A program made the translations under genes and the position numbers. A stretch of 35,518 nucleotides of DNA from an uncultured Eubacteriales bacterium. Lineage in GTDB: Bacteria; Bacillota; Clostridia; Lachnospirales; Lachnospiraceae. The notes under the pieces were generated by a model that was not told the DNA's origin, searched no databases, and saw only the letters and a program-made list of their open reading frames with translations. The stretch spans positions 1-35,518 of the forward strand of contig CASFBK010000022.1 of assembly GCA_949292785.1 (NCBI GenBank), read 5' to 3'. Below, one piece after another: positions 3,247-20,444 of this stretch; position 1 is the stretch's first letter, and each line of letters opens with the position of its first letter.

Positions 3247-3307
3247 TTGGTAGAAAATAAAAGAAAAAATATTTAAAATAAGGCAGAAAGGTTAGAAACA
3301 ACTAACC
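3247..3307 (+). promoter_or_regulatory. Promoter and GGTTAG-N6-CTAACC box before ABC pair 1
   Basis: A weak promoter can be read as TTGGTA (3247-3252), 17 nt, TATTTA (3270-3275), with TAAAAT (3274-3279) as an alternative -10. The perfect 18-bp inverted repeat GGTTAG-AAACAA-CTAACC at 3290-3307 would sit at the transcription start region. The same box recurs before four other genes in this window, so it is probably a shared repressor site. Confidence 0.6.
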
Positions 3308-3321
3308 AATCTGCCTTTTTT
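3280..3321 (+). terminator. Intrinsic terminator with an embedded operator-like inverted repeat
   Basis: AAGGCAGA (3280-3287) pairs with TCTGCCTT (3310-3317), with an inner stem GGTTAG/CTAACC and a 6-nt loop, followed by a T run to 3321. It lies between the AraC gene and the first ABC gene. Confidence 0.75.
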
Positions 3322-3354
3322 GTGTTACAAAAGGAAGGAAAGGAGAGAAACAAA

Positions 3355-5118
3355 ATGATTCAAAGAATTATGAAATATGCAGGTCCCTACAAAAAGAAAA
3401 CCATTCTTGCGACGGTCTGCATTTTTATAGCGGTATTAATGCAGGTATTGCCATTTTTGCTGGCATATCAGCTCATTGCGCCGCTGATTATGGGAAAGGA
3501 GCTTTCCTTGGAATATGTGGTGCTTCGTGTGGGTGGCGTATGTTTTTGTCTGATTCTATACAGCGTGCTCTACTGCGTAGGACTCAGCTTTTCCCATGAA
3601 GCAGCCTTTGGCATCTTAGAGCAAATCCGCATTTCCCTGCAAAAAAGAATGGAAAAGCTGCCCTTAGGCGTCATTCAGGAAAAGGGCGTGGGGATGATAA
3701 AACGGCTGTTCGTAGATGACGTAGAAAGCATGGAGGCGCTGCTTGCCCATGCCATACCGGAGGGCTTTGGAAATATTCTCATACCGGTGGTGATTTATGC
3801 AGCCATGTTTTTCACTGACTGGAAACTGGCGCTGATGTCGTTGTTTTCCGTGGTAATCGGTTTCTTTGCCATGATGAAAATGTTCACCATCGGAACTGCC
3901 GAAATGGAGAATTATTACCGTGCCGGAAAGGTCATGAACAACACCATCATCGAGTACATCAACGGAATGGAGGTCGTGAAGGTATTTAACAAGGACGGAG
4001 AATCCTTCGAGCGTTTCCAGCGGGATGTAAAGAGTTATCGCGACCTTACCCTTGCATGGTATAAGGCATGCTGGCCCTGGATGGCACTTTACAACAGCTT
4101 AGTGCCCTGTGCGGCGCTTTTAATGCTGCCGCTGGGAGCATGGTTCGTGTTGCAGGGATATTCCTCTCTGACGGATTTGATTCTGGTGCTGTGTCTGTCC
4201 TTCAGCGTGGGAATGCCGCTGTTAAAAGCCCTTGGCTTCGTTCCACAGTTTCCCCAGTTGGACTATAAGCTGCAGCAGCTAGAAGCGGTCATTGATGCAG
4301 AGCCCTTAAGGCAGACAACGGAAAAGTTCCATGGGAAAAATCATAGCGTTACCTTTGAAAATATCGGCTTTGCCTATGAAGAACAGGCCGTATTGGAGCA
4401 GGTCAGCCTTACCTTAAAGGAAGGACAGACCACCGCACTGGTAGGGGAATCCGGTTCCGGCAAAAGCACCCTGGCAAAGCTTCTGGTACACTACTATGAC
4501 GTAAACAGCGGAAGCATTAAGCTGGGCGGACAGGACATTTGCAGTATGAGTCTGGAAGCGTTGAATCAGGAAATTTCCTATGTAGCCCAGGAACAGTTTT
4601 TATTCAACACCTCTATTCTGGAAAATATCAGAATAGGAAAATTAAACGCCACCGATGAGGAAGTGCTTCAGGCGGCAGAACGGGCGCAGTGCATGGAATT
4701 TATACAAAAACTGCCCGATGGCATACATACTCTTGCAGGCGACGGCGGCAAAAAGCTTTCCAGCGGACAGAGACAGCGGATTGCCCTAGCAAGAGCTATT
4801 TTAAAGGACGCTCCTGTGGTGGTGTTGGATGAGGCAACTGCGTTTACCGACCCAGAAAACGAAGAGAAAATGAACGCGGCAATTCAGGAGGTCGTAAAAG
4901 GAAAAACCCTGCTTGTGATTGCTCATAAGCTTTCTTCCGTGAAAAATGCAGACCAGATTTGCGTCATGGAAAAGGGAAAAATCGTTGCCACAGGAAAGCA
5001 CGAAGCGCTATTAAATACCTGCGCCGAATACCAGAAGCTGTGGAAGGCTTCCGTAGAAAGCGCGGAGTGGAGAGTGGGAAAGGAGGAAGACTATGTTTCA
5101 GCTCATTCGGTTAATTAA
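3355..5118 (+). CDS. ABC transporter, fused permease/ATPase half-transporter (pair 1, first subunit)
   Basis: The 587-residue product has an exporter-fold transmembrane domain (six helices, about residues 15-300) and a C-terminal nucleotide-binding domain. Walker A GESGSGKST lies near residue 365, signature LSSGQRQRIALARAIL near 467, Walker B VVVLDEAT near 488 and the switch His in IAHKLSS. The sequence AHAIPEG in the membrane domain recurs as AHILPEM in the second pair. The ATG at 3355 is preceded by AAAGGAGAG; an upstream GTG at 3322 overlaps the terminator and was rejected. It overlaps the next half-transporter by 26 nt, so the two form a heterodimer. The paired half-transporters with an AraC gene resemble YbtPQ/IrtAB, which import siderophores despite the exporter fold; drug or peptide export is the alternative. 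Confidence 0.88.
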   Translation: MIQRIMKYAGPYKKKTILATVCIFIAVLMQVLPFLLAYQLIAPLIMGKELSLEYVVLRVGGVCFCLILYSVLYCVGLSFSHEAAFGILEQIRISLQKRMEKLPLGVIQEKGVGMIKRLFVDDVESMEALLAHAIPEGFGNILIPVVIYAAMFFTDWKLALMSLFSVVIGFFAMMKMFTIGTAEMENYYRAGKVMNNTIIEYINGMEVVKVFNKDGESFERFQRDVKSYRDLTLAWYKACWPWMALYNSLVPCAALLMLPLGAWFVLQGYSSLTDLILVLCLSFSVGMPLLKALGFVPQFPQLDYKLQQLEAVIDAEPLRQTTEKFHGKNHSVTFENIGFAYEEQAVLEQVSLTLKEGQTTALVGESGSGKSTLAKLLVHYYDVNSGSIKLGGQDICSMSLEALNQEISYVAQEQFLFNTSILENIRIGKLNATDEEVLQAAERAQCMEFIQKLPDGIHTLAGDGGKKLSSGQRQRIALARAILKDAPVVVLDEATAFTDPENEEKMNAAIQEVVKGKTLLVIAHKLSSVKNADQICVMEKGKIVATGKHEALLNTCAEYQKLWKASVESAEWRVGKEEDYVSAHSVN

Positions 5119-6844
5119 GCGTATCCTGAAGCTGTCAGGAACCTATGCAGGAAGAATTAAGGGAGCCTTTGTACTTTCAGCAGTAAAGTCCATGATGACC
5201 CAGATGCCGGTATTTGTAGCTTATTTAGTGTTGCTACAGTTTTACGAAAACAAAATGACAACGGAAAAGTGTATTTACACAGGAATTGCCATGGTAGGAA
5301 TCGTGGCAGTACAGGCGCTGGCGCACCTTTACAGTGACCGTCTGCAAAGTGCGGCAGGTTACATGGTATTTGCGGAGAAACGTATGGAGCTTGGAAATCA
5401 TTTAAAGAAGCTTCCCATGGGATATTTCACCGCAGGAAACATCGGAAAAATCAGTTCTGTTTTAAGCACCGATATGATTTTTATAGAAGAAATCTGCATG
5501 AGTACCATTGCGGACATGATGAGTTATATTTTTAACGCGATAGTTATGGCTCTTTTCCTGTTTTTCATTGATGTCAGAATCGGTATTATTATGCTGCTGT
5601 TTACTCTGCTTACCGTTTGTATTGCCGGTAAAATGAACCACTTGTCCATGGCAGAGGGAAAGATAAGACAGGAACAGAGCGAAAATCTCACCGGTGCAGT
5701 GCTTTCCTTTACAGAAGGAATCGGCATCATCAAAAGCTATAACCTGCTGGGAGAAAAGTCAAAGGAGCTTTCCGATAATTTCCGAAAGTCCAAAAAGACC
5801 TCTCTGCAATTTGAAAAGAAAATGACACCGTGGCAGATGACCTTGTTTCTGGTGTACGGAATCGGAACCGCAATCATACTGGGAACCGGTGTGTATCTTC
5901 AAAGAACCGGCGCACTTTCCCTGCCTTATCTGGTGGGACTGCTCTTCTTTGTGTTCAACCTGTTTGAGCCGTTGAAGGCGCTGTATTCCCAGGCCACCAG
6001 ACTGACGGTCATGAGCAGCTGTCTTGACCGGATTGAAGCGGTTTTCGATGAAAAAGAGCTTTTGGATAACGGAAAAAAACACATTCCCCAGGAGAACACA
6101 AAGGAGCCGGAGGTCAGCTTTTCCAATGTGACCTTTGCCTATGACAAGGCGGATGTAATAAAAAACGTCAGCTTCGAGATGAAAAAGAATACCATGACTG
6201 CGCTGGTAGGACCCTCCGGCGGGGGAAAATCTACCCTGGCAAGTCTCCTTACCCGCTTTTGGGATGTAAAGGAGGGAGCAGTCAAAATCCGCGGTGTAGA
6301 TGTGCGGGAGATTCCTCTGGCAGAGCTTATGAATCATATCAGCATGGTATTCCAGCGGGTATATCTGTTTCAGGATACAGTATACAATAATATCAGCATG
6401 GGAAAACAGAACGCCACGAGGGAAGAAGTTATGGAAGCGGCGAAGAAAGCAAGATGCTATGACTTCATCATGCAGCTTCCCGAAGGCTTTGACACCGTAA
6501 TCGGAGAGGGCGGTGCAACTCTGTCCGGTGGAGAGAAGCAGCGGATTTCCATTGCCCGCTGTATTTTAAAGGATGCTCCTATTGTTATTCTTGATGAGGC
6601 AACTGCAAGTGTGGACACGGATAATGAGAGCTATATTCAGGAGGCAATCAATGAGCTGGTAAAAGGAAAGACTTTGCTGGTCATTGCCCACAGGCTGAAC
6701 ACCATCCAGTCTGCGGAGCAGATTCTGGTGGTAGCCGACGGAGAGATTGCCGAGCAGGGAACTCATGGAGAGCTGATGGAAAGAGACGGCATTTACCAAA
6801 AATTTGTGGAGATACGGAAAAATTCTGGATTTACTCTGGAATAA
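5093..6844 (+). CDS. ABC transporter, fused permease/ATPase half-transporter (pair 1, second subunit)
   Basis: A 583-residue partner of the preceding gene. The ATG lies inside the end of the first gene behind AAAGGAGGAAGACT, so translation is coupled. Six membrane helices are followed by a nucleotide-binding domain with Walker A GPSGGGKST near residue 373, signature LSGGEKQRISIARCIL near 476, Walker B IVILDEATASVD and switch IAHRLNT. Both ATP sites of the heterodimer therefore look intact, apart from LSSGQ in place of LSGGQ in the partner. The gene ends just before a terminator, closing a two-gene operon behind the GGTTAG box. Substrate is not determined by sequence; a metallophore is the favoured guess from operon layout. 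Confidence 0.88.
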   Translation: MFQLIRLIKRILKLSGTYAGRIKGAFVLSAVKSMMTQMPVFVAYLVLLQFYENKMTTEKCIYTGIAMVGIVAVQALAHLYSDRLQSAAGYMVFAEKRMELGNHLKKLPMGYFTAGNIGKISSVLSTDMIFIEEICMSTIADMMSYIFNAIVMALFLFFIDVRIGIIMLLFTLLTVCIAGKMNHLSMAEGKIRQEQSENLTGAVLSFTEGIGIIKSYNLLGEKSKELSDNFRKSKKTSLQFEKKMTPWQMTLFLVYGIGTAIILGTGVYLQRTGALSLPYLVGLLFFVFNLFEPLKALYSQATRLTVMSSCLDRIEAVFDEKELLDNGKKHIPQENTKEPEVSFSNVTFAYDKADVIKNVSFEMKKNTMTALVGPSGGGKSTLASLLTRFWDVKEGAVKIRGVDVREIPLAELMNHISMVFQRVYLFQDTVYNNISMGKQNATREEVMEAAKKARCYDFIMQLPEGFDTVIGEGGATLSGGEKQRISIARCILKDAPIVILDEATASVDTDNESYIQEAINELVKGKTLLVIAHRLNTIQSAEQILVVADGEIAEQGTHGELMERDGIYQKFVEIRKNSGFTLE

Positions 6845-6866
6845 AAATGGTTTGTACAAAAAGGGA

Positions 6867-6900
6867 GGCAGTTTTATCATTGGGATGAAACTGCCTTTTT
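6867..6900 (+). terminator. Intrinsic terminator after ABC pair 1
   Basis: GGCAGTTT (6867-6874) pairs perfectly with AAACTGCC (6888-6895) and is followed by TTTTT. It lies 23 nt after the stop codon. Confidence 0.85.
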
Positions 6901-7173
6901 CGTCTAAATAAATAGTTGGTTCAGCTAGTCAATTAACAATTCTGAAACAAAACTCAAACAAAACAAAAATAAAACCCGTCTATACTTAAAACAACAATAC
7001 TGATAGCAATCCCTTCTTTAGATATTCGTATTTCAGAGTTAAAAATATGCCGGTTATGTGGTATTATTTTAAGGATTCCGGACGAGACATCGACCGGAAC
7101 AGTGAAGCACGTACTACGAATCAGATAAGAAAACAATAGAAAGACCGGTTAGAGTTCGGTCAGGAGGAAAAAT
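6901..7173 (+). promoter_or_regulatory. Intergenic control region of the two-component operon
   Basis: No gene is seen here. A weak promoter TTAAAA (7039-7044), 17 nt, TATTAT (7062-7067) is followed by an inverted repeat TTCCGG (7076-7081) / CCGGAA (7094-7099), which would sit near the transcription start. A second small inverted repeat, GACCG/CGGTC, lies just before the AGGAGG ribosome site at 7162-7167. The repeats may be binding sites of the encoded response regulator (inference). Confidence 0.4.
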
Positions 7174-7845
7174 ATGATTAATATTCTTGTGTTGGAAGAT
7201 GATTTAAAATTAAACCAGACCGTATGTACCTATTTAAATGACAGCGGTTTTCAGGCAAAGGGATGTCTGAATGCCAATGCTGCTTATGAGGAAATGTATA
7301 ACAATTTATACGAGCTGATTATTTCGGATATTATGCTGCCGGAGATAGATGGCTTTGAATTTGCGGAAAATGTAAGACGTGTAAACAAGCATATCCCGAT
7401 TCTTTTTATGTCGGCAAAGGACGATTTACCATCGAAGCAGAAAGGCTTTCAGCTGGGCATTGACGATTACATGGTAAAACCCATTGAGCTGGACGAACTG
7501 CTTCTTCGTGTAAGGGCACTGCTGCGGCGTGCCAATATTGAAATGGACAGAAAACTGGTGGTGGGAAATCTCAAGCTGGATGCAGATGCCATGACAGCCA
7601 CCATTGCAGGAGAAGAGATTGCCGCAACAACAAGAGAATTTAATATACTTTATAAGCTGCTTTCCTATCCCAACAAGACATTTTCCAGAGCACAGCTCAT
7701 GGATGAATTCTGGGGCGTGGACAGCGAAACCAGCCTGCGGGCAGTAGATGTGTATATCACAAAGCTTCGGGATAAGTTTTCCGCCTGTGACGGATTTGAG
7801 ATTAAGACCGTGCGGGGGCTTGGCTATAAGGCGGTGATGAGATGA
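7174..7845 (+). CDS. OmpR/PhoB-family response regulator
   Basis: The 223-residue protein has an N-terminal receiver domain, with acidic pocket LEDD at 7-10, phospho-acceptor Asp52 in ISDIMLPEIDG and the conserved Lys in MVKPIELDELL. A C-terminal winged-helix domain follows (FSRAQLMDEFWG, DVYITKLRDK, TVRGLGYK). AGGAGG precedes the ATG. The gene overlaps the histidine kinase by 4 nt (ATGA). It probably activates or represses the downstream membrane protein and MFS genes in response to envelope stress or a toxic compound; the signal is not known. BceR/VanR-like regulators have the same layout. Confidence 0.93.
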   Translation: MINILVLEDDLKLNQTVCTYLNDSGFQAKGCLNANAAYEEMYNNLYELIISDIMLPEIDGFEFAENVRRVNKHIPILFMSAKDDLPSKQKGFQLGIDDYMVKPIELDELLLRVRALLRRANIEMDRKLVVGNLKLDADAMTATIAGEEIAATTREFNILYKLLSYPNKTFSRAQLMDEFWGVDSETSLRAVDVYITKLRDKFSACDGFEIKTVRGLGYKAVMR

Positions 7846-8933
7846 GAAAAAAGGAATTTCAGGATGCGCGGGTAAAGAAAAAGATATTTCCGGTTTCCAT
7901 ATTTTTAGCGGTATTTGTGGCGTTTGGGTTATTCACAACCATACAGATGCGTATGATTGGAGAAAAAATTGATTACCAGAACATATCCCGTCAAAGTCAG
8001 CTTGCAGTTATCGGGCTTTGGTTTTTAGCTGCGGTAGCCTTTACTTTGTGGACCAATTATCAGATTACCAGGTATTACCAAAAACCTGTGGAAGAATTTT
8101 CGGAGGCTGCCCGTAAAGTAGCTTCCGGAGATTTTTCCGTTTATCTTGCGCCGCATCATACCGCAGATAAATTCACACATCTGGACGTATTGTTTACGGA
8201 TTTTAATAAGATGGTGGAGGAGCTTGGCAGCATTGAAACTCTGAAAACGGATTTCTTTTCCAATGTTTCTCATGAGATTAAAACCCCTCTTGCAGTTATA
8301 CAGAATAATGCGCAGCTGCTTCTCATGGATGACCTGACAGAGGAGCGGCGGAAAGAATATGCGGAGACCATTCTCCATGTCACAAGGCGGCTTTCCAATT
8401 TGATTACCAATATGCTTAAATTAAATAAGCTGGAAAAACAGACCATCAAGCCCGTACCTCGGAAGTATGATTTGTGTGCCCAGCTTTGTGAATGTGCCCT
8501 GCAGTTTGAAGATATGTGGGAGCAAAAGAATGTGGAGTTCGCTGTGGAGATAGAAGAAAGAACTACCATAGAGGCAGATCCGGGGCTCTTGGAGCTGGTC
8601 TGGACAAATCTGTTGTCCAATGCCTTGAAGTTTACGCCCTCGGGGGGAACCGTTACGCTGTCACAGACATCGGACGAAGAGGAAGTGACCGTTTCGGTTG
8701 CGGATACCGGCTGCGGTATGGATGAGGAAACAAGGAAAAAAATATTTGACAAATTTTATCAGGGAGATACATCTCATTCCACAGAAGGAAATGGACTGGG
8801 ACTTGCTCTGGTGAAAAGGATTCTTCAACTGACAGACGGCAGTATTTCCGTAAAAAGTCACATAGGAAAGGGAACGACTTTTACCGTAAGATTGCCAAAA
8901 CATAAAAAAGAAAATGGAGAGGAAGTGATGTAA
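7842..8933 (+). CDS. Membrane sensor histidine kinase
   Basis: A 363-residue partner of the preceding regulator. Two membrane helices (about 16-36 and 54-72) are separated by an external loop of only about 17 residues, so the signal is probably sensed in or at the membrane. A HAMP-like linker follows, then the phospho-acceptor His144 in NVSHEIKTPL. The ATPase domain has N box NLLSNALKFTPSGG, G1 DTGCGMDEE and G2 GNGLGLALVKRI. All catalytic motifs are intact. The reading frame starts within the stop of the regulator gene and its own stop overlaps the next start by one base (TAATG), making a tight operon. Confidence 0.92.
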   Translation: MRKKEFQDARVKKKIFPVSIFLAVFVAFGLFTTIQMRMIGEKIDYQNISRQSQLAVIGLWFLAAVAFTLWTNYQITRYYQKPVEEFSEAARKVASGDFSVYLAPHHTADKFTHLDVLFTDFNKMVEELGSIETLKTDFFSNVSHEIKTPLAVIQNNAQLLLMDDLTEERRKEYAETILHVTRRLSNLITNMLKLNKLEKQTIKPVPRKYDLCAQLCECALQFEDMWEQKNVEFAVEIEERTTIEADPGLLELVWTNLLSNALKFTPSGGTVTLSQTSDEEEVTVSVADTGCGMDEETRKKIFDKFYQGDTSHSTEGNGLGLALVKRILQLTDGSISVKSHIGKGTTFTVRLPKHKKENGEEVM

Positions 8934-9496
8934 TGCAGGAAGATAAAAACAGAAAGTCTTATATTGGATATGAATATAAAGAAATTACAGTAAATGAAAA
9001 TCAGGTATCCATGTATCTGGACTGTTATGAGAATTTTGGCTGGATTGCAGAAAAAGAGTTGACAGACAGAAATCCGTACCAGAGACCGCATCAGAATCCA
9101 TACCAGGGGAAGAATCAGGTGACAATTCAAATGAAGCGTGACCGAAAAATCATCAACAAAATGGAGTTGACACGGTTACAGCGGAATTTTGAAGCCTGTG
9201 TTCATGAAATCGGAATGTTAGAGCAGGCAAAAACCAGGCTCGCACTCATTTGGGCGTTGGCGATTGGAATAGCAGGAACTGTATTCATGGCAGGCTCCAC
9301 CTTTGCCGTTACTCATGAGCCGCCAATTATCTGGCTGTGTGTCCTGCTTGCCATTCCGGGCTTTATCGGCTGGGTTCTGCCTTACTTTGTATATCGGGAA
9401 ACGGTAAAAAAACAGACGGAAAAGCTGCAACCGCTGATTGAACAGAAAATGGAAGAGATTTACGAGGTCTGCGAAAAGGGACATTCTTTATTGTAA
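8933..9496 (+). CDS. Unknown two-helix membrane protein in the two-component operon
   Basis: The 187-residue product is not recognised. The first 100 residues are polar, with a short internal repeat NPYQ...NPYQ (about residues 46-60) and a basic segment KRDRKIINK. Two hydrophobic helices follow (about 102-125 and 132-150, the second ending in YFVYRE), then a charged, probably coiled-coil tail rich in Glu, Lys and Gln. The start overlaps the kinase stop by one base. Its place between the kinase and an efflux pump suggests an accessory envelope-stress protein or a modulator of the kinase; neither can be shown from sequence. Confidence 0.7.
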   Translation: MQEDKNRKSYIGYEYKEITVNENQVSMYLDCYENFGWIAEKELTDRNPYQRPHQNPYQGKNQVTIQMKRDRKIINKMELTRLQRNFEACVHEIGMLEQAKTRLALIWALAIGIAGTVFMAGSTFAVTHEPPIIWLCVLLAIPGFIGWVLPYFVYRETVKKQTEKLQPLIEQKMEEIYEVCEKGHSLL

Positions 9497-9528
9497 ATAC
9501 AAAGATTGAATGAAAGGAAAGAAAAATA

Positions 9529-10914
9529 ATGTCAGTAAAGCTAAGCGATAAACAAAGACTGCTGGTTTTTATTAATGTAATGATAACGGGAATTGCCACT
9601 TCCATGCTGGCAACCGCAATGACAACCGCGCTTCCGCCGGTCACGGAATATTTTGGAATCAGCACTACAACAGGACAATGGATGACAAGCGGTTATTCCC
9701 TGGCAATGGGAATCGTAATGCCATTAACCGCATTTCTGGTCAAGAAAATTCCAACGAAAAGGCTGTATATTTCCGGTATTATATGTTTTATTATTGGCGA
9801 GCTTATTTGCATATTTACTCCGGTATTCAGCATTATGATGGTTGGCAGGGTACTTCAGGCAATTGGAAATGGGGTACTAACTTCTATGGGGCAGGTAATT
9901 ATACTGTCCGTGTATCCGGCAGAGAAAAAAGGGACTATGATGGGCTGGTATGGACTTGCAGCCACAGCGGCGCCGATTATTGCACCAACAATAGCCGGAG
10001 TATTGGTAGATACGGTTGGATGGAAGTATATATTTATTTATACCATGGTCATCATGCTTATTTCTCTGGTAATGTCTATTGCTAATTTTAGTAATGTACT
10101 GGAGTTGCAGGAAATTGACTTTGATGTTCTTTCCTTTGTACTTAGCATATTTGCATTTGGTGGAATCACCCTTGGAATTGGAAATATAGGAAGCTTTGGC
10201 ATTACAAATCTGATGTCAGGACTTCCATTGATTATTGGCATTGTAGGAGCGGTATTTTTTGTATTCAGACAGCTAAAATTGGAAAAAGCGTTTTTAGATA
10301 TCCGCATTTTAAAGAAAAAAGAATATGCGCTGGCAGTTATTTCCAGTATGCTGTTGTATCTGGTCATGATGGGAGGCTCTGTGTTAATGCCTTTATATGT
10401 TCAGTCCGTGTTAGGCTATTCCGCAGTAACGTCAGCCCTTGTTACACTGCCTGGCTCTGTTGCTACTGCAGTGATCAATCCATTTGCAGGCCGGATTTAT
10501 GATAGGATAGGGATTAAGAAATTATATGTGGTAGGTTCCATCTGCCTGCTGATAAGTAATCTGGGTATGTATTTTGTGGCATTGTCTACGCCTCTGATAG
10601 TGTCAGCCATTTTTAATGTAGTACGAAATGTGTCTATTGGGTGTCTTATGATGCCGCTTCTGACATGGGGAACCAGTCAGGTCGGGAAAGAAAAGGTCGC
10701 TGACGCCTCGTCTCTGCTTACATCATTGCGAACAGTAGCCGGTTCTATCGGTTCCGCTGTCTTTGTTGCAATTATGTCGGCAGTAGCAATTTCTTCTAAA
10801 GCCAGTTATGGGGCGGGGGCATCTATGCATGGAGTGAATATTGCATTTGTTTCTATGTCGGTCAGTACGTTAATCATGGTGGGAATCGCATTGTTTGGAG
10901 TAAGGAAAAAATGA
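9529..10914 (+). CDS. MFS transporter, DHA2 (EmrB/QacA-like) drug:proton antiporter family
   Basis: A 461-residue membrane protein with 12 or more hydrophobic helices. The opening helix ends in an ALPPVTEYF segment typical of DHA2 pumps (ALPxI). Helix 4 contains GRVLQAIGNGV, the motif B Arg/Gly pattern, and helix 5 contains GLAATAAPIIAPTIAGVL, an antiporter motif-C-like stretch. AAAGGAAAG precedes the ATG. It follows the unknown membrane protein by 32 nt and ends before a strong terminator, so it is the last gene of the two-component operon and its likely output. Substrates cannot be predicted; efflux of an antimicrobial compound is most likely. Confidence 0.88.
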   Translation: MSVKLSDKQRLLVFINVMITGIATSMLATAMTTALPPVTEYFGISTTTGQWMTSGYSLAMGIVMPLTAFLVKKIPTKRLYISGIICFIIGELICIFTPVFSIMMVGRVLQAIGNGVLTSMGQVIILSVYPAEKKGTMMGWYGLAATAAPIIAPTIAGVLVDTVGWKYIFIYTMVIMLISLVMSIANFSNVLELQEIDFDVLSFVLSIFAFGGITLGIGNIGSFGITNLMSGLPLIIGIVGAVFFVFRQLKLEKAFLDIRILKKKEYALAVISSMLLYLVMMGGSVLMPLYVQSVLGYSAVTSALVTLPGSVATAVINPFAGRIYDRIGIKKLYVVGSICLLISNLGMYFVALSTPLIVSAIFNVVRNVSIGCLMMPLLTWGTSQVGKEKVADASSLLTSLRTVAGSIGSAVFVAIMSAVAISSKASYGAGASMHGVNIAFVSMSVSTLIMVGIALFGVRKK

Positions 10915-11086: not shown

Positions 11087-11139
11087 TTGATTTTCCAAAT
11101 AAAATAAATTATGATGGAAAAGGTTAGTTTTATCTAACT
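11087..11139 (+). promoter_or_regulatory. Enolase promoter with GGTTAG-N6-CTAACT box at the start point
   Basis: TTGATT (11087-11092), 17 nt, TATGAT (11110-11115) makes a good promoter, with transcription expected near 11122. The inverted repeat GGTTAG-TTTTAT-CTAACT occupies 11122-11139, that is, the first 18 transcribed bases. One of twelve arm bases departs from the shared box. Confidence 0.7.
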
Positions 11140-11159
11140 AAACTTGAGTGTAAATCATG

Positions 11160-12554
<1,395 letters not shown>

Positions 12555-12979: not shown

Positions 12980-13004
12980 AAATATCGGTTAGAAGAGACT
13001 AACC
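12951..13004 (+). promoter_or_regulatory. Promoter and GGTTAG-N6-CTAACC box upstream of the amidase gene
   Basis: A consensus TTGACA (12951-12956) is followed after 18 nt by TTTAGA (12975-12980). The perfect box GGTTAG-AAGAGA-CTAACC lies at 12987-13004, at the expected transcription start. The promoter overlaps the end of the decayed membrane-protein gene. Confidence 0.6.
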
Positions 13005-13130: not shown

Positions 13131-13961
13131 ATGCGAAAATTTATGGTAGCTGTTTGTCAAATGGATTCTCAAAATGATAAAGAAGAAAACCTGCAAAAGG
13201 CAGGAGAGATGATTGCGGAGGCAGCCGAAAAGGGAGCCAGGCTGGTGGCATTTCCGGAAATGATGAATTTTATGGGAGAAGGGTACTGCGAACAGGCGGA
13301 AACCATTCCGGGACATACGGCGGATTTTCTATGTGAAAAAGCAAAGGAGCATAACGTCTGGGTAATCAGCGGAAGCTTTCCGGAAGAGACGGGGAGCGCA
13401 AACCCGAAGAATACGCTAATGCTGATTAATCCGAAAGGCAGCATCTGTTGTAAATACAGTAAGCTTCATATGTTTGATGTAGAGATAAATGGAGTATCCT
13501 ATTGCGAATCCGCACAGAATGCAGCGGGAAATGAAATCGTTCTGGCAGATACGGAAATCGGCAGGATAGGATTTGCAATCTGCTATGACCTGCGGTTTGG
13601 TGAAATGTTCCGTATTATGGCGCTGCAGGGGGCACAGATTATCTGCATTCCATCAAGCTTTACGTTGGAGTCGGGAAAGGACCACTGGGAGGCATTGCTC
13701 CGGGCACGGGCTATCGAGAATGGGGTATATATTATTGCACCAAACCAGATTGGGAAAAAATCCAGTATGAATGCATATGGAAACTCCATGGTGGTGAATC
13801 CCTGGGGAACTGTCATCGCCAGAGCAGGGGAACAGCCGGGCTGTGTCATGGCAGAAATTGATTTGGATTATGTTGAACATGTCAGGAAACAGGTTCCGGC
13901 ACTTTTGAATCGGAGAGAAGATGTGTATCAAATTGACAGCGGTAAGGTAAAGATATATTAA
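13131..13961 (+). CDS. Carbon-nitrogen hydrolase (nitrilase superfamily), omega-amidase/Nit2-like
   Basis: A 276-residue cytoplasmic amidase. The catalytic triad is visible: Glu43 in AFPEMMN, Lys111 in YSKLHMFD and Cys151 in GFAICYDLRFGEMF. The KLHMFD and CYDLRF contexts are those of the Nit1/Nit2 group, whose members deamidate alpha-keto acid amides such as alpha-ketoglutaramate or deaminated glutathione; true nitrilases differ here. AGGAGGACGGT precedes the ATG. The gene is monocistronic, between the decayed gene and a terminator. Assignment to the superfamily is firm; the exact substrate is not. Confidence 0.9.
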   Translation: MRKFMVAVCQMDSQNDKEENLQKAGEMIAEAAEKGARLVAFPEMMNFMGEGYCEQAETIPGHTADFLCEKAKEHNVWVISGSFPEETGSANPKNTLMLINPKGSICCKYSKLHMFDVEINGVSYCESAQNAAGNEIVLADTEIGRIGFAICYDLRFGEMFRIMALQGAQIICIPSSFTLESGKDHWEALLRARAIENGVYIIAPNQIGKKSSMNAYGNSMVVNPWGTVIARAGEQPGCVMAEIDLDYVEHVRKQVPALLNRREDVYQIDSGKVKIY

Positions 13962-13980
13962 AAGATACGGAATTATGGAA

Positions 13981-14026: not shown

Positions 14027-14089
14027 TACATGGAGGATGTGGTAATGAATATTAAAACTGATAAAAACTATCAGCAAGCACACATTCTA

Positions 14090-14161: not shown

Positions 14162-14247
14162 ATTATTACAAATCATAAGAACGTAGCAGAAGTATAAAAC
14201 CATAACCGAAATGAAACCGGAAATGAAAAGCGAAAGGAATTAAAGCA

Positions 14248-14874
14248 ATGGCAAAACAAATCGAAGGAGTATACGAGCGTATCTTAGCCTGTGCCAAAGA
14301 AGAATTTTTAACCAAAGGCTTCAAAGACGCATCCCTGCGTGTGATTGCAGCCAACGCTAATACCAGCACCGGCTCCATTTACACCAGATTTCACGACAAG
14401 CAGGGCTTGTTTCAGCAAATCGTAGAGCCTGTGGTGCAAGGACTGATGGAGATGTATCTGAGGATTCAGGAAACCTTTTCCCGGATGGATGGAAAGACGC
14501 AGGTTGAAAATATGGGAAGCTATACCTCCGCCTCCATGGATGACATGATTGATTACATGTATGACCATTTTGATGAATTCTGCCTGTTGTTAGATGCTTC
14601 CTATGGAACCAGATTCCAGAACTTCATGGAAGAAATGATTCGCATTGAGGTAGAATACACCTATAAATATATGAAACACATTGACTGTCAGAGCATCTCC
14701 GGCGGGGAAGTAACAGAAGAATTTTTCCATATCGTAGTCACCTCATATTTCAACAGTGTATTTGAGGTCATCCGCCACCGCATGAGCCGGGAAGAAGCCA
14801 AACGCTATATTCGGCTGTTGAATAAATACCACATGGCGGGCTGCGACACAATATTTTATCCGGAACGATACTAA
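14248..14874 (+). CDS. TetR/AcrR-family transcriptional regulator
   Basis: The 208-residue protein has an N-terminal helix-turn-helix: ILACAKEEFLTKGFKDASLR, then VIAANANTSTGSIYTRFHDKQGLF, the standard TetR recognition pattern. The remaining 150 residues are helical and acidic and would bind a small ligand. AAAGGAATTAAAGCA precedes the ATG, a modest ribosome site. It lies 184 nt before the second ABC half-transporter pair, separated by a terminator and a GGTTAG box, and so probably controls that pair and itself. It is also one candidate protein for binding the recurring box, although the palindrome before its own gene has a different sequence. Confidence 0.9.
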   Translation: MAKQIEGVYERILACAKEEFLTKGFKDASLRVIAANANTSTGSIYTRFHDKQGLFQQIVEPVVQGLMEMYLRIQETFSRMDGKTQVENMGSYTSASMDDMIDYMYDHFDEFCLLLDASYGTRFQNFMEEMIRIEVEYTYKYMKHIDCQSISGGEVTEEFFHIVVTSYFNSVFEVIRHRMSREEAKRYIRLLNKYHMAGCDTIFYPERY

Positions 14875-14883
14875 AACGCTAAC

Positions 14884-14923
14884 AAGGTTGTCTTTAAACT
14901 GCGCAGGAAGACAGCCTTAAAAT
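14884..14923 (+). terminator. Intrinsic terminator after the TetR gene
   Basis: AAGGTTGTCTT pairs with AAGACAGCCTT (one wobble) across 13 nt. The T run is short, so termination may be partial. Confidence 0.6.
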
Positions 14924-14950
14924 ATAACAATGAGTTAGTAAAAACTAACC
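14918..14950 (+). promoter_or_regulatory. -10 element and GTTAG-N6-CTAAC box before ABC pair 2
   Basis: TATAAC (14923-14928) or TAAAAT (14918-14923) can serve as -10; no good -35 is visible, which suggests activator dependence. The box AGTTAG-TAAAAA-CTAACC lies at 14933-14950, with one arm base off the perfect form. A 108-nt leader with a perfect AGCGACC/GGTCGCT hairpin (15011-15031) follows. Confidence 0.55.
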
Positions 14951-15057
14951 AAACAAAGCCGCCTGGTAAGCTCGAAAAGACTTTGCTAACAGCGGCATGC
15001 ATCGCACGTAAGCGACCCAAATACGGTCGCTAAGTGCTCATAACAAGGAGGAACTAT

Positions 15058-16800
15058 ATGAAAAAACAAAGTCCGCTGCTTCGCATATGGGAGTTGGGTG
15101 AAAAAGAGCATGGAAGACTGATACGTTCCATCGTATCTGCCGTTATCGGCGTGCTCGGAGGAATGATTCCCTATTATGCAGCAGCACAAATTATTATTGC
15201 ATTAGTAAACGGAGAAAAGGAGCTATCCTTTTATCTTACATGGTGTGGAATAGGGCTTGCAGGATATATAGCACGTACCTGTCTTTACACCCTGGCGTTG
15301 TCCATGTCTCATAAGGCAGCATTTTCTGTCTTAAAGGATATCAGAAGACGTGTGCTGGAGAAGCTTCCCAAAATGCCTCTGGGAACCATAATAGATACCT
15401 CAAGCGGCAGAATGAAGCAGATTATTGTAGACCAGGTGGACAGCATGGAGACCACGCTTGCACATATTCTGCCGGAGATGACTTCCAATGTACTTGGGGC
15501 AGTATGCGTAATTATTTATCTGTTTATTTTGGACTGGCGCATGGCATTGCTTTCGCTGGTTTCCCTTCCCGTAGGATTTCTTTTTATGGGAGCTGTGATG
15601 GGAAACTACAGTAAAAAATACGAAGGCTCTGTAAGAACCACCCAGGCAATGAACGAAACCATGGTGGAATACATTGGCGGAATAGAAGTTATCAAAGCCT
15701 TTAATCAGGGAAAAAATTCCTACGCCAAATTTACAGACAGGGTAGTGGCAAATGCCGCATACTTTTATAACTGGATGAAGGAATGCCAGCTTCCCATGGC
15801 GCTTGCCAAAACAATAGCGCCTACGACACTGATTACCATTCTCCCGGTAGGATGGATTCTGTACCAAAATGGAAGCCTTAGCATGGAGACCTTTGTAACA
15901 ACGATAATTTTGTCTCTTAGCATTGTGGGACCATTGATGGCAGCAATGAACTTTGTGGACAGTCTGGCGAAGATAGGAACTATCGTAGGTTCTGTAGACG
16001 AGATTCTTCTTGGAGAAGAACAGGAGCACGGAGAACTGCCGGTCATGTTCGGAAAAATGGATATTTCCGTAGAAAACGTATCCTTCGGCTACCATGAAGA
16101 AGAGGTTCTTCACAATGTCAGCCTTACCATTCCAGCAGGAAGCATGACGGCATTTGTAGGTCCTTCCGGCAGCGGAAAATCAACCCTCGCCAAGCTGATT
16201 GCAGGCTTTTGGGATGTAAATGCCGGAAGCATTACCATGGGAGGCTGTGACTTAAACAAAATACCGTTACAACAGCTTTACGCCCAGGTGGCATTCGTGT
16301 CCCAGGATAATTACCTGTTTGACGAGACCATCCGGGAAAATATCCGTATGGGAAGACCGGGAGCCAGCGACAGCCAAGTGGAAGCAGTTGCAAAAGCAGC
16401 AGGCTGTGATGATTTTATCCGCAAACTGGAACAAGGCTACGACACCAAAGTTGGCGGTGGCGGAGCACATTTGTCCGGCGGAGAACGTCAGAGAATTGCC
16501 ATAGCAAGAGCTATGTTAAAGGATGCACCTGTTGTTGTCTTAGATGAAGCAACGGCATACATAGACCCGGAAAACGAAGCGGTCATTCAGCGGGCAGTGG
16601 CACAGCTGATAAAAGGAAAAACAGTAATTGTCATTGCACACAGACTTTCTACTATTATAGATGCAGACCAGATATTTGTCATAAACAACGGTTCCATAGA
16701 GGGTGCAGGAAATCACGAGGAGCTGTTGAAAAACTGTGCACTATATCAAAACATGTGGCAGGCGCATATTGGAGCAAAGGATGGTGACGAGTTATGTTAA
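15058..16800 (+). CDS. ABC transporter, fused permease/ATPase half-transporter (pair 2, first subunit)
   Basis: The 580-residue product has the same architecture as the first subunit of pair 1: six membrane helices, the AHILPEM motif, then a nucleotide-binding domain with Walker A GPSGSGKST, signature LSGGERQRIAIARAML, Walker B VVVLDEATAYIDPENE and switch IAHRLST. Similarities such as LSMSHKAAFSVL and MPLGTI to pair 1 (LSFSHEAAFGIL, LPLGVI) show that the pairs are paralogues. The ATG at 15058 follows AAGGAGGAACTAT; an upstream in-frame start at 15034 lacks a ribosome site. It overlaps the next gene by 7 nt. Both importer (YbtPQ/IrtAB-like) and exporter roles are possible; regulon context favours uptake. 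Confidence 0.88.
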   Translation: MKKQSPLLRIWELGEKEHGRLIRSIVSAVIGVLGGMIPYYAAAQIIIALVNGEKELSFYLTWCGIGLAGYIARTCLYTLALSMSHKAAFSVLKDIRRRVLEKLPKMPLGTIIDTSSGRMKQIIVDQVDSMETTLAHILPEMTSNVLGAVCVIIYLFILDWRMALLSLVSLPVGFLFMGAVMGNYSKKYEGSVRTTQAMNETMVEYIGGIEVIKAFNQGKNSYAKFTDRVVANAAYFYNWMKECQLPMALAKTIAPTTLITILPVGWILYQNGSLSMETFVTTIILSLSIVGPLMAAMNFVDSLAKIGTIVGSVDEILLGEEQEHGELPVMFGKMDISVENVSFGYHEEEVLHNVSLTIPAGSMTAFVGPSGSGKSTLAKLIAGFWDVNAGSITMGGCDLNKIPLQQLYAQVAFVSQDNYLFDETIRENIRMGRPGASDSQVEAVAKAAGCDDFIRKLEQGYDTKVGGGGAHLSGGERQRIAIARAMLKDAPVVVLDEATAYIDPENEAVIQRAVAQLIKGKTVIVIAHRLSTIIDADQIFVINNGSIEGAGNHEELLKNCALYQNMWQAHIGAKDGDELC

Positions 16801-18533
16801 ATGCATTAAAGAAAATCTGGCAGTTTGCAGGGGAAGAACGAAAAAACATTAATAAATCCATTGTAATAGAATTTTTCTATGCTATTTTCCATATGTTCCA
16901 GATTGGAGCAATCTATTATGTGATACTGGCATTGACAGGAAAGGAAACCGGAAACAGCGTAGCGTGGAAAGCTCTGTGCTTTCTGGGAATCAGTATCTTA
17001 GGAAGAACCGTGCTGAACTACTTTGCACAGCTTGAACAGACCCATGCAGGTTATTTTATGGTGGCAAATAAACGAATTGAGATTGGAAACAAGCTAAAGA
17101 GCGTTCCCATGGGATACTTTAATCATAACAATCTGGGAGAAATTACAGGTGTAGCCACCAGCGTGCTGGAGGAGGTAGAATTTACAGCACCTATGGTATT
17201 GGTGAATATTCTGGGCGGTTTTATCAATGCGGTAGTATTTATGCTTATGATTCTTGTATTTGACTGGAGGATTGGGCTGATTGTAGTGGCAGGAACTGCC
17301 CTTTACCTTATCGTTACTTCCAGTATGGAAAAAAAGTCTGCAAACGTGGCGCCAAAGCGTCAGGCGGCAACCGCTCATCTGGTCAGTGCAGTGCTAGAGC
17401 AGATTCAGGGGATGAGTGTCATTAAATCCTTCAATCTGACCGGAAAGGGAGACAAAAACCTGCAGGAGGCATTAGAGAAAAGCAGAAGCACCAATCTTGC
17501 CATGGAACAGCTTTTTACTCCTTATACTATCGCACAGGGAATTTCCCTTCAGATTGCCGGTATTGGAATGATAATGGCAGCCACGGTATTTTATTTAAAC
17601 AGCAGTATGAGCCTTGCAAATGCATTGATGGTTATCATCATGTCGTTTCTGGTTTTCTCCCAGGTAGAATCTGCCGGAAGTGGTATGTCAATCTTAAGAA
17701 TCGTTGCAAGCTCCATTGACCATGCTAACCAGATGGATGAGATTCCTCAGATGGATGAAAAAGGAAAAGAAATTGTTCCGAAAAATCACGAGATTACATT
17801 TGAACATGTATGCTTCTCCTATGAAAAAAAGGAGATATTGCATGACATATCGGTCCATATTCCCGATAAGACCACTACGGCAATTATCGGACCTTCCGGT
17901 TCCGGAAAAACAACCATGTGCAACCTGATTGCAAGGTTCTGGGATGTGGACAGCGGCTCCATAAAAATAGGCGGAAAAGATGTGCGGGAGTATACCTTAG
18001 AATCCCTGATGGAACAGATTAGTATGGTGTTTCAGAACGTATACCTGTTTGCAGATACCATCGAAAACAACATCCGCTTCGGAAGACCGGAAGCCACCCA
18101 TGAAGAAGTGGTAGAAGCTGCAAAGCGCGCCTGCTGCCATGAATTTATCGAAGCCCTTCCCGAAGGGTATCAGACGGTAATCGGCGAAGGAGGCGCCAGC
18201 CTTTCCGGTGGAGAAAAACAGCGTATCTCCATAGCAAGAGCCATGTTAAAAGACGCACCTATTGTTATTCTGGATGAAGCCACCGCAAACGTAGACCCGG
18301 AAAACGAAGACCGCCTGCAAAAGGCAATCGAAGAATTGACCAGAGACAAGACCATCATTATGATTGCCCACCGCCTGAAAACGGTCCGCCACGCAGACCA
18401 GATACTGGTAGTGGATGACGGAAAAATCGTTCAGCAGGGAAAACACGAAGAATTAATCGGACAGAAAGGCATCTACGCGGACTTTGTTTTGGGAAGAAAC
18501 GAAGCAATCGGATGGAAATTAAACTCCCAATAA
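16794..18533 (+). CDS. ABC transporter, fused permease/ATPase half-transporter (pair 2, second subunit)
   Basis: A 579-residue partner of the preceding gene, starting inside its end. The membrane domain includes VPMGYFNHNNLGEITG, matching LPMGYFTAGNIGKISS of the second subunit in pair 1, so first and second subunits form separate paralogous lines. The nucleotide domain has Walker A GPSGSGKTT, signature LSGGEKQRISIARAML, Walker B IVILDEATANVDPENE and switch IAHRLKT, all intact. It closes the operon before a terminator. The substrate is unknown; heterodimer formation with the first subunit is inferred from coupling and family precedent. Confidence 0.88.
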   Translation: MLNALKKIWQFAGEERKNINKSIVIEFFYAIFHMFQIGAIYYVILALTGKETGNSVAWKALCFLGISILGRTVLNYFAQLEQTHAGYFMVANKRIEIGNKLKSVPMGYFNHNNLGEITGVATSVLEEVEFTAPMVLVNILGGFINAVVFMLMILVFDWRIGLIVVAGTALYLIVTSSMEKKSANVAPKRQAATAHLVSAVLEQIQGMSVIKSFNLTGKGDKNLQEALEKSRSTNLAMEQLFTPYTIAQGISLQIAGIGMIMAATVFYLNSSMSLANALMVIIMSFLVFSQVESAGSGMSILRIVASSIDHANQMDEIPQMDEKGKEIVPKNHEITFEHVCFSYEKKEILHDISVHIPDKTTTAIIGPSGSGKTTMCNLIARFWDVDSGSIKIGGKDVREYTLESLMEQISMVFQNVYLFADTIENNIRFGRPEATHEEVVEAAKRACCHEFIEALPEGYQTVIGEGGASLSGGEKQRISIARAMLKDAPIVILDEATANVDPENEDRLQKAIEELTRDKTIIMIAHRLKTVRHADQILVVDDGKIVQQGKHEELIGQKGIYADFVLGRNEAIGWKLNSQ

Positions 18534-18557
18534 TATAATTCTCTGTGAGCTGCCAAA

Positions 18558-18608
18558 AAGCTGCCGTTTTCACGATAAAAAGAAAAAATCGTGGAGCGGC
18601 AGTTTTTC
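18558..18608 (+). terminator. Intrinsic terminator after ABC pair 2
   Basis: CTGCCG pairs with CGGCAG and CACGAT with ATCGTG inside it, followed by TTTTT. Confidence 0.85.
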
Positions 18609-18749
18609 AGTGTAGTTTTATTTATCGTTCTATGGTATGATATGGATAATTGGTGAGATAAATTAGAGCCTGATACAAAGAATACCTGCCCACATATCCA
18701 GATGTTTTCAAGTTCATTGTGCAGGGTGATACAAGGGAGAATATTTTTT

Positions 18750-18995
18750 ATGAAAGTGGTGAATTTTACATGTCCGGGCTGTGGCGCTCAAATGGTAGTA
18801 AAGCCCGGTGGAAGAGAGGCTGTATCCGCACTTATTACAAACGAGGTGGTTTCTGCCGAACCGGTCAAGATGTTTCTTTTGACTGACGGTAAAAATTTTC
18901 TCTATGATGTGTACGAAGTCGGCTACAAAATGCGTGACGATAGTGTGAAAACAGTATATATCAGGACAGTGTGCTTACCGGATATTTTCACTTGA
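18750..18995 (+). CDS. Small zinc-ribbon-like protein, possibly truncated
   Basis: An 81-residue ORF with AAGGGAGA nine bases before the ATG at 18750. It begins MKVVNFTCPGCGAQM, half of a zinc ribbon (CPGC). The second Cys pair expected of such a fold is absent; only one further Cys occurs, near the end (VCLPD). The rest, with LLTDGKNFLYDVYEVGYKMR, is not recognised. The gene may be a remnant of a longer zinc-ribbon protein, or a small protein that dimerises around one metal. It sits alone between the ABC terminator and the AraC gene. An earlier in-frame start at 18702 has no ribosome site. Confidence 0.45.
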   Translation: MKVVNFTCPGCGAQMVVKPGGREAVSALITNEVVSAEPVKMFLLTDGKNFLYDVYEVGYKMRDDSVKTVYIRTVCLPDIFT

Positions 18996-19046
18996 TGAGA
19001 TAAAAATGGATATTCAGACCTATCAGGAGTCCGACATGAAATTAAT

Positions 19047-19076
19047 AGAACGATAGTAGAAAGAACGATAGTAGAA
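19047..19076. repeat. Tandem duplication of 15 bp
   Basis: AGAACGATAGTAGAA occurs twice head to tail (19047-19061, 19062-19076) in the region upstream of the AraC gene. It could be a direct-repeat activator site or a simple slippage duplication. Confidence 0.8.
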
Positions 19077-19081
19077 GGATA

Positions 19082-19114
19082 TGTAAAACTGTATTTTACA
19101 TCGTACACTATAAT
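19082..19114 (+). promoter_or_regulatory. Promoter of the AraC gene with a 19-bp inverted repeat in the -35 region
   Basis: TGTAAAA-CTGTA-TTTTACA (19082-19100) is a perfect inverted repeat. It is followed by a consensus TATAAT (19109-19114) with no recognisable -35, the position where an activator or autoregulator would bind. A start near 19121 would leave a leader of about 33 nt. Confidence 0.55.
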
Positions 19115-19153
19115 TATTCGTGAGAACGAATGATTGCAGCGGGAGTGCAGAAA

Positions 19154-20347
19154 ATGAAAAACTTTGTAACTATTCAGGAAATTGCAGGAAGATGGAACAT
19201 CTCTCCCCGCCGGGTTCAATATCTTTGTAAAGATAATCGAATTCAGGGAGCGAAGAAAATCGGGGATATATGGCTTATCCCTGATGATGCTCCAAAGCCT
19301 GCAGATATGAGAAAAAAGAAGATAGTAAAGGAACCGGTCTTTCCCATTGACGACCTGGATATTGAAACATTATATGGACCGGACACAAGGCAAATCCGGG
19401 ATGATGAGCTGTGCAGTATCTATCGAACAAAGCATGGAAACGGAACAGGTGTGGTAACAAAGTATGACGTGCTTCCCGGCATACAGCTTTTCTATCAGGA
19501 CTTTCATCTGGACAGCCTGGATTACAGTCGGACGGAACAGGATTTTTCTAAAAATGTCATTACGATTAATCATTGTCGTTTGGGGAGGTTTGAAGCTGAA
19601 TTTTCTAACGGAGAATTCATTTATCTTGGTGAAGGGGATTTGGCAATGAACCTTCCTGAAAAAGCTCCTGTTCGCAATACTTTTCCTCTATCCCATTTTC
19701 ACGGCATTACCATCACGATTTCGACCCCGGAAGCGGCACAGGGCATAAGAGAGTTAGAGGAGGTTTTCGGAGAGATACCCATACACTTTGAAATCCTGCG
19801 GGAACGGTTGTTAAAGGGGAATGAGCTTGTTATCTTCCGTTCTGAACCGGCGCTGGAACATATTTTAGGGGAAATGTATGAGGAACAGAAACGTACCCGC
19901 CTGTTTTATCTGAAATTAAAGGTTTTAGAGCTTTTGTGTTATCTTCTTTCTTCTAATGCGGGAACAGCAGATGAACGTCCATACTTCTATAAAAATCATG
20001 TTGTGGCAGTAAAGGCCATGACGGAGTACATGGTAAAAAATATTGACCGTCATTTTACTTTGGAGGAATTGTCCGCAAAATTTGAAATACCGCTGACCTC
20101 TATGAAAAAATGCTTCAAGGGCGTCTATGGGATGCCGGTACAGACTTATATGCGGGAATATCGTGTTCATGTGGCGGCTGAACTGCTCCGGCAGACAGAC
20201 CTTTCAATTGGGGAGATTGCGGAGCAGGTAGGCTATTCCAACCAAAGCAAGTTTACAGAAGTATTCAAACGAATTTTGAATGTTTCTCCTGCCCGGTACC
20301 GAAATAATTGTTGTCTGGATGGGAGAAAAGAGAACTTTTCAGATTAA
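19154..20347 (+). CDS. AraC-family regulator with an added N-terminal HTH domain
   Basis: The 397-residue product starts with a short helix-turn-helix of the excisionase/MerR-like kind (TIQEIAGRWNISPRRVQYLC, then IGDIWLIPDDAPKP), residues 1-50. An AraC-type ligand region follows (about 75-290), then a C-terminal AraC domain with LEELSAKFEIPLTSMKKCFK and GEIAEQVGYSNQSKFTEVFK, ending SPARYR. The ATG at 19154 has GGGAG eight bases upstream; an in-frame ATG at 19130 lacks a ribosome site. It is next to the ECF transporter operon and probably controls it. Two DNA-binding modules in one chain are unusual for AraC proteins. It is not similar over its N-terminal part to the AraC protein at 2264. Confidence 0.85.
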   Translation: MKNFVTIQEIAGRWNISPRRVQYLCKDNRIQGAKKIGDIWLIPDDAPKPADMRKKKIVKEPVFPIDDLDIETLYGPDTRQIRDDELCSIYRTKHGNGTGVVTKYDVLPGIQLFYQDFHLDSLDYSRTEQDFSKNVITINHCRLGRFEAEFSNGEFIYLGEGDLAMNLPEKAPVRNTFPLSHFHGITITISTPEAAQGIRELEEVFGEIPIHFEILRERLLKGNELVIFRSEPALEHILGEMYEEQKRTRLFYLKLKVLELLCYLLSSNAGTADERPYFYKNHVVAVKAMTEYMVKNIDRHFTLEELSAKFEIPLTSMKKCFKGVYGMPVQTYMREYRVHVAAELLRQTDLSIGEIAEQVGYSNQSKFTEVFKRILNVSPARYRNNCCLDGRKENFSD

Positions 20348-20389
20348 CGCCGCCTGCCACAACTATGCTAAACTATACAGGCGTAAGGA

Positions 20390-20417
20390 AATCGCTCCTT
20401 CAAGGGGCGATTTTTTT
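20390..20417 (+). terminator. Intrinsic terminator after the AraC gene
   Basis: ATCGCTCCTT pairs with AAGGGGCGAT (one wobble), followed by seven T. It separates the regulator from the ECF operon. Confidence 0.85.
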
Positions 20418-20426
20418 ACGAACATA

Positions 20427-20444
20427 GGTTAGTGAATTCTAACC
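20427..20444. promoter_or_regulatory. GGTTAG-N6-CTAACC box before the ECF operon
   Basis: A perfect 18-bp inverted repeat (spacer TGAATT) that ends immediately before the AAAGGAG ribosome site of the EcfT gene. No convincing -10 is seen between the terminator and the box, so binding may act on read-through from the AraC promoter or on a weak local start. Confidence 0.65.

Follow-up and report, generated by a model that had tools for sequence, protein, structure and literature searches.

The closest described counterparts of the element treated here are operators of the DtxR family. EqbA, the regulator of the equibactin locus on ICESe2, has a proposed operator, AACTATTATTGTTAGATGTATCTAACAATAATAGTT, that contains GTTAG-N6-CTAAC; the available excerpts of the original report state that EqbA binds its promoter with Fe2+, Zn2+ or Mn2+, that deletion of eqbA raises eqbE expression 13-fold, and that the protein, 33% identical to MntR, has no SH3 domain, carries Asn13 and Cys104, and likely represents a new subclass (PMC3672683). 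The 19-bp box of IdeR, TTAGGTTAGSCTAACCTAA, holds TTAG-N6-CTAA twice, 5 bp apart, one bound by a dimer at repeats 1+3 and the other at repeats 2+4; for one IdeR dimer on its half site, TTAGG-N4-CCTAA, the excerpted text of that study gives an apparent dissociation constant of ~78 nM (PMC8464063). Here, we examine an 18-bp inverted repeat, RGTTAG-N6-CTAACY (the box), which marks five places in a 35,518-nucleotide stretch of DNA (the window) from an uncultured bacterium of the Lachnospiraceae (contig CASFBK010000022.1 of GCA_949292785.1). Our analysis suggests that the box is very probably the operator of P0001, an iron-activated, EqbA-like repressor of the DtxR family encoded outside the window in the same genome; we infer the binding of P0001 to the box, iron as its co-repressor, and repression as the sign of control. 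Open-access literature searches, covering papers in part, found no iron operator or regulon described for Lachnospiraceae.

A box with a fixed spacer

The spacing was examined in 80 loci (856 kb) picked by homology to the regulator and not by the box itself. When spacers of 0 to 15 bases were allowed in GTTAG-Nk-CTAAC, 71 matches had k = 6, single matches were seen at k = 2, 9 and 10, and the other twelve values gave none, while the reversed pattern at k = 6 occurred once in the same loci. The six-base spacer is fixed. A count over 200 genomes of the bacterial family gave 698 copies of RGTTAG-N6-CTAACY and 77 of the reversed-pattern control, and 164 of these genomes have at least one box. A survey of 75 sites from 17 genomes (all sites outside the window's own genome among those listed) placed 73 between genes according to a simple gene caller of our own, though 88.6% of the bases are coding. 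The genome from which the window comes (assembly G000; 3.65 Mb in 30 contigs, the window being contig C22) holds 18 exact copies of GTTAG-N6-CTAAC versus 4 of the reversed pattern. Thirteen of the 18 are clearly intergenic, one (C9:12530) lies in a doubtful ABC start region, and four lie in genes, which is the number that the reversed pattern predicts.

Within the window, the first-pass annotation had reported five intergenic copies of GGTTAG-N6-CTAACC, and we recovered all of them between genes (5/5), three perfect and two with one arm mismatch. Box 1, GGTTAGAAACAACTAACC (3290-3307, perfect), stands before a pair of ATP-binding cassette (ABC) genes, ABC pair 1, whose ATG is at 3355; box 2, GGTTAGTTTTATCTAACT (11122-11139, one arm mismatch), before an enolase gene; box 3, GGTTAGAAGAGACTAACC (12987-13004, perfect), before an amidase-type gene; box 4, AGTTAGTAAAAACTAACC (14933-14950, one arm mismatch), before ABC pair 2; and box 5, GGTTAGTGAATTCTAACC (20427-20444, perfect), before an energy-coupling factor (ECF) transporter operon, adjoining its ribosome-binding site. 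These five are the only window matches at up to one mismatch, a number reached by none of 100 dinucleotide shuffles of the window (mean 0.03, largest 1). With three mismatches allowed, the window holds 10 matches versus 10.22 expected; such matches were ruled out as meaningful sites, and only near-perfect copies carry meaning.

The first-pass annotation set the box apart from those of DtxR and IdeR on the ground that the half-sites of the latter lie one base apart instead of six. This argument is not supported, since TTAGGTTAGSCTAACCTAA holds TTAG-N6-CTAA for each dimer in the part of the IdeR study available (PMC8464063). As TTAGG-N4-CCTAA can be rewritten as TTAG-N6-CTAA, the present box is laid out like a site for a single dimer. 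The systems of Actinobacteria are further alike in having an iron regulon and a box on the -10 or start point, according to the excerpted sources (PMC8464063, PMC10317159). They differ in that two dimer sites are interleaved there and one is present here, and in that P0001 has no SH3 domain and has Asn9 in place of Met10. The boxes are not copies of the classical 19-bp TTAGGTTAGSCTAACCTAA, as each holds one TTAG-N6-CTAA and the centres vary. They also depart from the redefined 14-bp TTAGGNNNNCCTAA, keeping its spacing but having the inner G in only 3% of cases (75 sites, both strands). The base kept beside TTAG is the inner G in IdeR and the outer RG in the present boxes, the outer R being imposed by the search pattern RGTTAG-N6-CTAACY. 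Gln43 of IdeR, described as contacting the inner base, would correspond to Val42 of P0001, provided that the register drawn from an ungapped MntR alignment, with its further step from MntR to IdeR, holds.

The candidate regulator and its distribution

P0001 is a protein of 123 residues encoded at G000:C9:206765-207133, divergently from feoA-feoA-feoB. It matches PF01325 (Fe_dep_repress, a helix–turn–helix domain) at 36.7 bits against a cut-off of 26 and PF02742 (Fe_dep_repr_C, the metal-binding and dimerization domain) at 52.5 bits against a cut-off of 27, and by these two domains its membership of the DtxR/MntR superfamily is settled. All NCBIfam scores fall below their cut-offs, both for MntR models (80.4 versus 153 and 62.1 versus 138 bits) and for DtxR (29.5 versus 290 bits). 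Its nearest solved relatives are MntR proteins, and it shares with MntR of Bacillus and E. coli a short, two-domain architecture. Unlike MntR, however, which has Glu at this place, P0001 has a cysteine, Cys100, at the position of the DtxR-type iron ligand; it also falls short of the MntR cut-offs, and its apparent targets are iron genes. Alignment with 80 homologues shows N9, E12, H78, C100, E103 and H104 to be invariant in 81/81 sequences, as are K37, S39 and S41 of the recognition helix. The 81 aligned sequences measure 117-130 residues (translations were cut at 130 codons) and have no SH3-like domain.

EqbA, compared here by its published description rather than by sequence alignment, resembles P0001 in several ways. 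As far as the excerpts go, both are short DtxR-family proteins without SH3, with Asn for the Met10 of DtxR and a Cys ligand; the operator core is the same; the targets are iron uptake genes including an ABC importer; and MntR, to which EqbA is related, is the nearest solved relative of P0001. In contrast, EqbA is described as acting on a 36-bp palindrome at one siderophore operon on a mobile element, whereas here an 18-bp box stands at many chromosomal promoters across a bacterial family. Our data suggest that proteins of the EqbA subclass occur widely among Clostridia and govern a chromosomal iron regulon there.

The distribution of the box follows that of the protein. In a survey of the class (118 genomes from 55 families, with counts that ignore kinship), 58 genomes have a P0001 match at E <= 1e-25, a limit set after the list had been seen and to be held against the result, and 51 of these 58 have a box (187 boxes versus 33 in the control). 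The other 60 show no excess, with a box in 14 of them and 30 boxes versus 30. When the class is split at E <= 0.001 instead, boxes occur in 59/87 genomes versus 6/31 (counted by hand). Within the 200 genomes of the bacterial family, the boxless fraction is 6/10 where a P0001 relative is lacking versus 30/190 where one is present (p 0.003).

The first-pass annotation had left the regulator undecided between DtxR-like, Fur-like and TetR-like proteins and had advised looking for a regulator gene beside its own box. The P0001 gene, divergent from the boxed feoA, is such a gene; the DtxR-like option now has a strong candidate, and the Fur-like and TetR-like options have become much less likely. Two other genes with weak PF01325 matches, C9:14527 and C9:121067, are of MarR type and fit MarR or general winged-helix models better. 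The proposal that the box is the operator of a dimeric repressor is supported by the fixed spacer, the intergenic place, the overlap with -10 elements described below and the co-occurrence with P0001.

Promoters and genes beside the box

The regulator/feoA region gives the clearest view of the box at a promoter. Of the 80 loci, 77 have 400 bases upstream of the regulator gene (three are shortened by contig ends), and in 49 of these a box with at most one mismatch lies within 400 bp upstream (44 exact; reversed control 2). On the opposite strand, 47 of the 49 boxed loci have a feoA promoter whose -10 falls inside the box behind a 17-base spacer; the -35 is TTGACA in 44 and TTGACT in 3, and TATACT is the -10 inside the box in 43/49. 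By a simple promoter score, two genes of the window's own genome, feoA and that of a FeoB-associated protein, have the -10 within the box (offset -13), and other sites have it some 7 bases ahead. For 16 boxed loci of the enolase set (15 before enolase, together with L214 before a flavodoxin gene), the same score gave a gap of exactly 7 in 9 and an offset of -13 in 3. The two placements lie 20 bases apart, roughly two turns of the helix, which would let the repressor meet the polymerase from the same side; both would be expected to block the promoter. The first-pass annotation had seen a -10 at four window sites; this stands for ABC pair 1, eno and ABC pair 2, where the -10-like hexamer ends 11, 7 and 10 bases before the box core, but the amidase and ECF sites have only poor promoter matches.

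In the mechanism that we propose, one dimer would occupy each box, each arm meeting one winged helix, and the six-base centre, free of contact with a second dimer, could vary. With ample Fe2+, the repressor would sit on the -10 (feoA type) or the start point (eno type) and transcription would be blocked. Iron shortage would release it, switching on feoA-feoA-feoB, the FecCD importer, the half-type ABC pairs and the ECF systems, and likewise the flavodoxin operon and the enolase. One of the boxes adjoins the regulator gene itself, and autoregulation may occur.

The genes beside the box point to iron. Outside the window, boxes in the same genome precede feoA-feoA-feoB with the divergent dtxR-type gene (L024), a DUF3793-flavodoxin operon (L024), a FecCD siderophore-type importer (L023), a 51-residue FeoB-associated protein (L027), an ABC pair plus Trep_Strep (L013), DUF454 followed by YgbA_NO and an ABC protein (L012), ABC-FtsX (L018) and DUF3877-TetR-methyltransferase (L019). 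Weaker copies (CTAAYY or one mismatch) stand before feoB itself (L024), before ECF systems and ABC pairs (L020, L021, L022) and before genes for an AMP-binding/carrier protein and a thioesterase (L013). No obvious link to iron was seen for the boxed ABC-FtsX, DUF3877, methyltransferase and amidase genes. In the relatives, Pfam families were tallied for 81 proteins whose start lies no more than 400 bases to either side of a site (the script's 81, with two added from behind sites first called coding and two very short ones dropped); both sides of divergent sites were counted, so not all of these proteins are targets. The 25 commonest of the 84 families include ABC_tran (10), ABC_membrane (8), DUF3793 (7), enolase, DUF2325, AraC-type, methyltransferase and DtxR-type (4 each), FeoB and FeoA (3 each) and Trep_Strep (2). 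The check suggested by the first-pass annotation, for boxes before iron-uptake genes, turned up feo, FecCD and ABC pairs, and its suggestion of an iron regulon gains support from these and from the flavodoxin and ECF targets.

Enolase is the unexpected target. Among loci with an enolase of the window's type, 17 of 30 have a box within 400 bases upstream, 15 of them exact, and the reversed control has none; distances were measured from the tblastn match, which is not always the start codon. Other enolases of the same bacterial family, 42-74% identical to that of the window, have a box in 1/18 loci (L240, with two one-mismatch copies). The window's own genome encodes a second enolase (G000:C15:90375-91661; 60% identical to the first), with no box in the 261 bases upstream before the contig ends. 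In some genomes, the window-type enolase is apparently the sole one; full repression would be implausible there, and control would have to be partial or be supplemented by a second promoter. The first-pass annotation had named equal frequency in coding DNA and a lack of conservation before orthologous genes as findings that would speak against an operator. We found neither, given the intergenic bias of the listed sites and the conservation before regulator/feoA and window-type enolase genes. The leaders that follow the box at enolase genes (window 11140-11258; L196, L197, L201, L205, L206, L210, L211, L215, L219) and at the flavodoxin gene of L214 have in common a stretch like GTGTGAATAAATCAT, followed in the alignment by apparent variable hairpins ahead of the ribosome-binding site; this could be a shared 5' leader.

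The boxed genes of the window itself are as follows. ABC pair 1 (3355-6844, + strand; open reading frames 3322/3355-5118 and 5093-6844) encodes two half-type ABC proteins (ABC_membrane and ABC_tran) and follows an AraC-type regulator gene with an HTH_18 match (2246-3232, + strand). The window-type enolase, identified by Pfam, lies at 11259-12554 (+ strand) behind a candidate promoter, TTGATT-17-TATGAT (11087-11115, + strand), with the box core starting 7 bases past the -10. The amidase-type gene (13131-13961, + strand) encodes a carbon-nitrogen hydrolase of amidase/nitrilase type by Pfam, all NCBIfam matches being under cut-off. ABC pair 2 (15058-18533, + strand; open reading frames 15034/15058-16800 and 16794-18533), again two half-type proteins, lies downstream of a TetR-type gene (14248-14874). 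The ECF operon (20462-23343, + strand) encodes a CbiQ-type T component, a double ATPase and a Trep_Strep (MptD-type) S component, with an AraC-type gene upstream (19130-20347). Unrelated to the box question, 23560-25418 holds a DUF3440/PAPS-reductase-type gene and then a gene for a ParB_N-domain protein. Elsewhere in the genome, at L013-L014 (G000:C4:140500-163500), the boxed AMP-binding/carrier and thioesterase genes and the ABC pair with Trep_Strep are followed by ketosynthase and condensation-domain genes, possibly a siderophore-like locus of nonribosomal peptide synthetase/polyketide synthase type.

Exceptions, rival readings and meaning

Several observations, besides the late choice of the E limit, weigh against P0001 as the regulator that binds the box. 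At 28 of the 77 loci, the 400 bp upstream of the regulator gene hold no box (that of L065 is further out), and outside the bacterial family only 9 of 28 loci have one within 500 bases on either side of that gene. Within the family, the 30 genomes that combine a P0001 relative with no strict box are of the same kind. G176, the sole other genome of the same genus, has 2 strict boxes versus 3 in the control, thus no excess, but nonetheless has a box beside the gene of its regulator (L033). G295 is the chief exception: it is 99% complete and has 11 boxes, some before feoA-feoB and a Shr-like haem-binding gene; we found in it no DtxR-family protein, no PF02742 match genome-wide and none in the six box-flanking stretches. 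Its regulator gene may have been lost from the assembly; G200 and G240, class-mates of the family of G295, have a P0001 relative. Lesser exceptions are G030, G063, G145 and G196, with 2-4 boxes, no P0001 relative and no PF02742 match. As a separate observation on G295, two tandem boxes lie between the gene of the Shr-like haem-binding surface protein and an M20 peptidase gene (L283).

A Fur-family protein in place of a DtxR-family one would account for the iron genes among the targets, and the genome does encode a Fur-like protein on C11, which scores 150.7 bits with the Bacillus Fur model against a cut-off of 220, and a PerR-like one, both of which also count against P0001, as well as a short third Fur-type protein beside feoB. 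The Fur box is TGATAATNATTATCA. By eye, the arms of our box are unlike it, and where Fur-box-like matches occur they are separate sequences; we therefore rejected Fur as the main binder. Such a sequence, with two mismatches, adjoins the feoA box (L024 11603-11617) and likewise in several relatives, a further point against P0001 acting alone, but matches with two to three mismatches are common by chance: the scan of 186 kb gave 8 at up to two mismatches, of which two lay no further than 120 bases from a box. Since the excess of boxes also tracks the P0001-type protein across the class (scored for that type only) and the EqbA precedent is a DtxR-family protein, we regard binding of the box by Fur as very unlikely, although feo may be under joint control by Fur and the DtxR-type protein. 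The short Fur-type gene, at L024 8485-8916 (- strand), directly follows feoB, and the match of its product to the FUR model is confined to the N-terminal part.

Another dimeric regulator, of TetR, MarR or AraC type, is brought to mind by the TetR- and AraC-type genes that adjoin several boxed operons and the MarR-type genes near others. These neighbours vary from site to site while the box remains one, only the DtxR-type gene recurs beside it, and boxed feo, flavodoxin and enolase genes have no common neighbour of these types, all of which makes such a regulator highly improbable. A reading of the palindromes as RNA hairpins, either terminators or attenuators, draws on box 1, which forms the inner part of a hairpin, AAGGCAGA..TCTGCCTT (3280-3317, + strand), with a T run after it. 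The stretch 3270-3330 folds as RNA at -20.7 kcal/mol, and the hairpin with its T's looks like the terminator of the upstream AraC-type gene, which leaves box 1 ambiguous on its own. Against this, the box at feoA covers the -10 and would be mostly untranscribed, the arms are fixed in sequence beyond what pairing asks for, the isolated 18-mer folds at just -5.5 kcal/mol, and Rfam at gathering cut-offs gave no match in the window; as a general account, RNA hairpins are barely credible.

The box is best explained as the operator of P0001. It would offer a natural example of a single-dimer DtxR-type site, the function of which is called open for IdeR in the excerpts available (PMC8464063). In a broader form, to which we give an even chance, Lachnospiraceae and many other Clostridia would run a global iron regulon through an EqbA-type mini-DtxR on single-dimer boxes, reaching glycolysis through one enolase type, boxed in many genera, and the mobile element that carries the equibactin repressor would have borrowed it from this ancient system. 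The enolase target raises the idea of an iron-controlled enolase, and, if true, cells short of iron would switch enolase or raise its level. Lachnospiraceae rank with the most common bacteria of the gut, whose community is shaped by iron supply; a recognizable box with a candidate repressor would allow the response to iron to be read from the sequences of hundreds of uncultured genomes.

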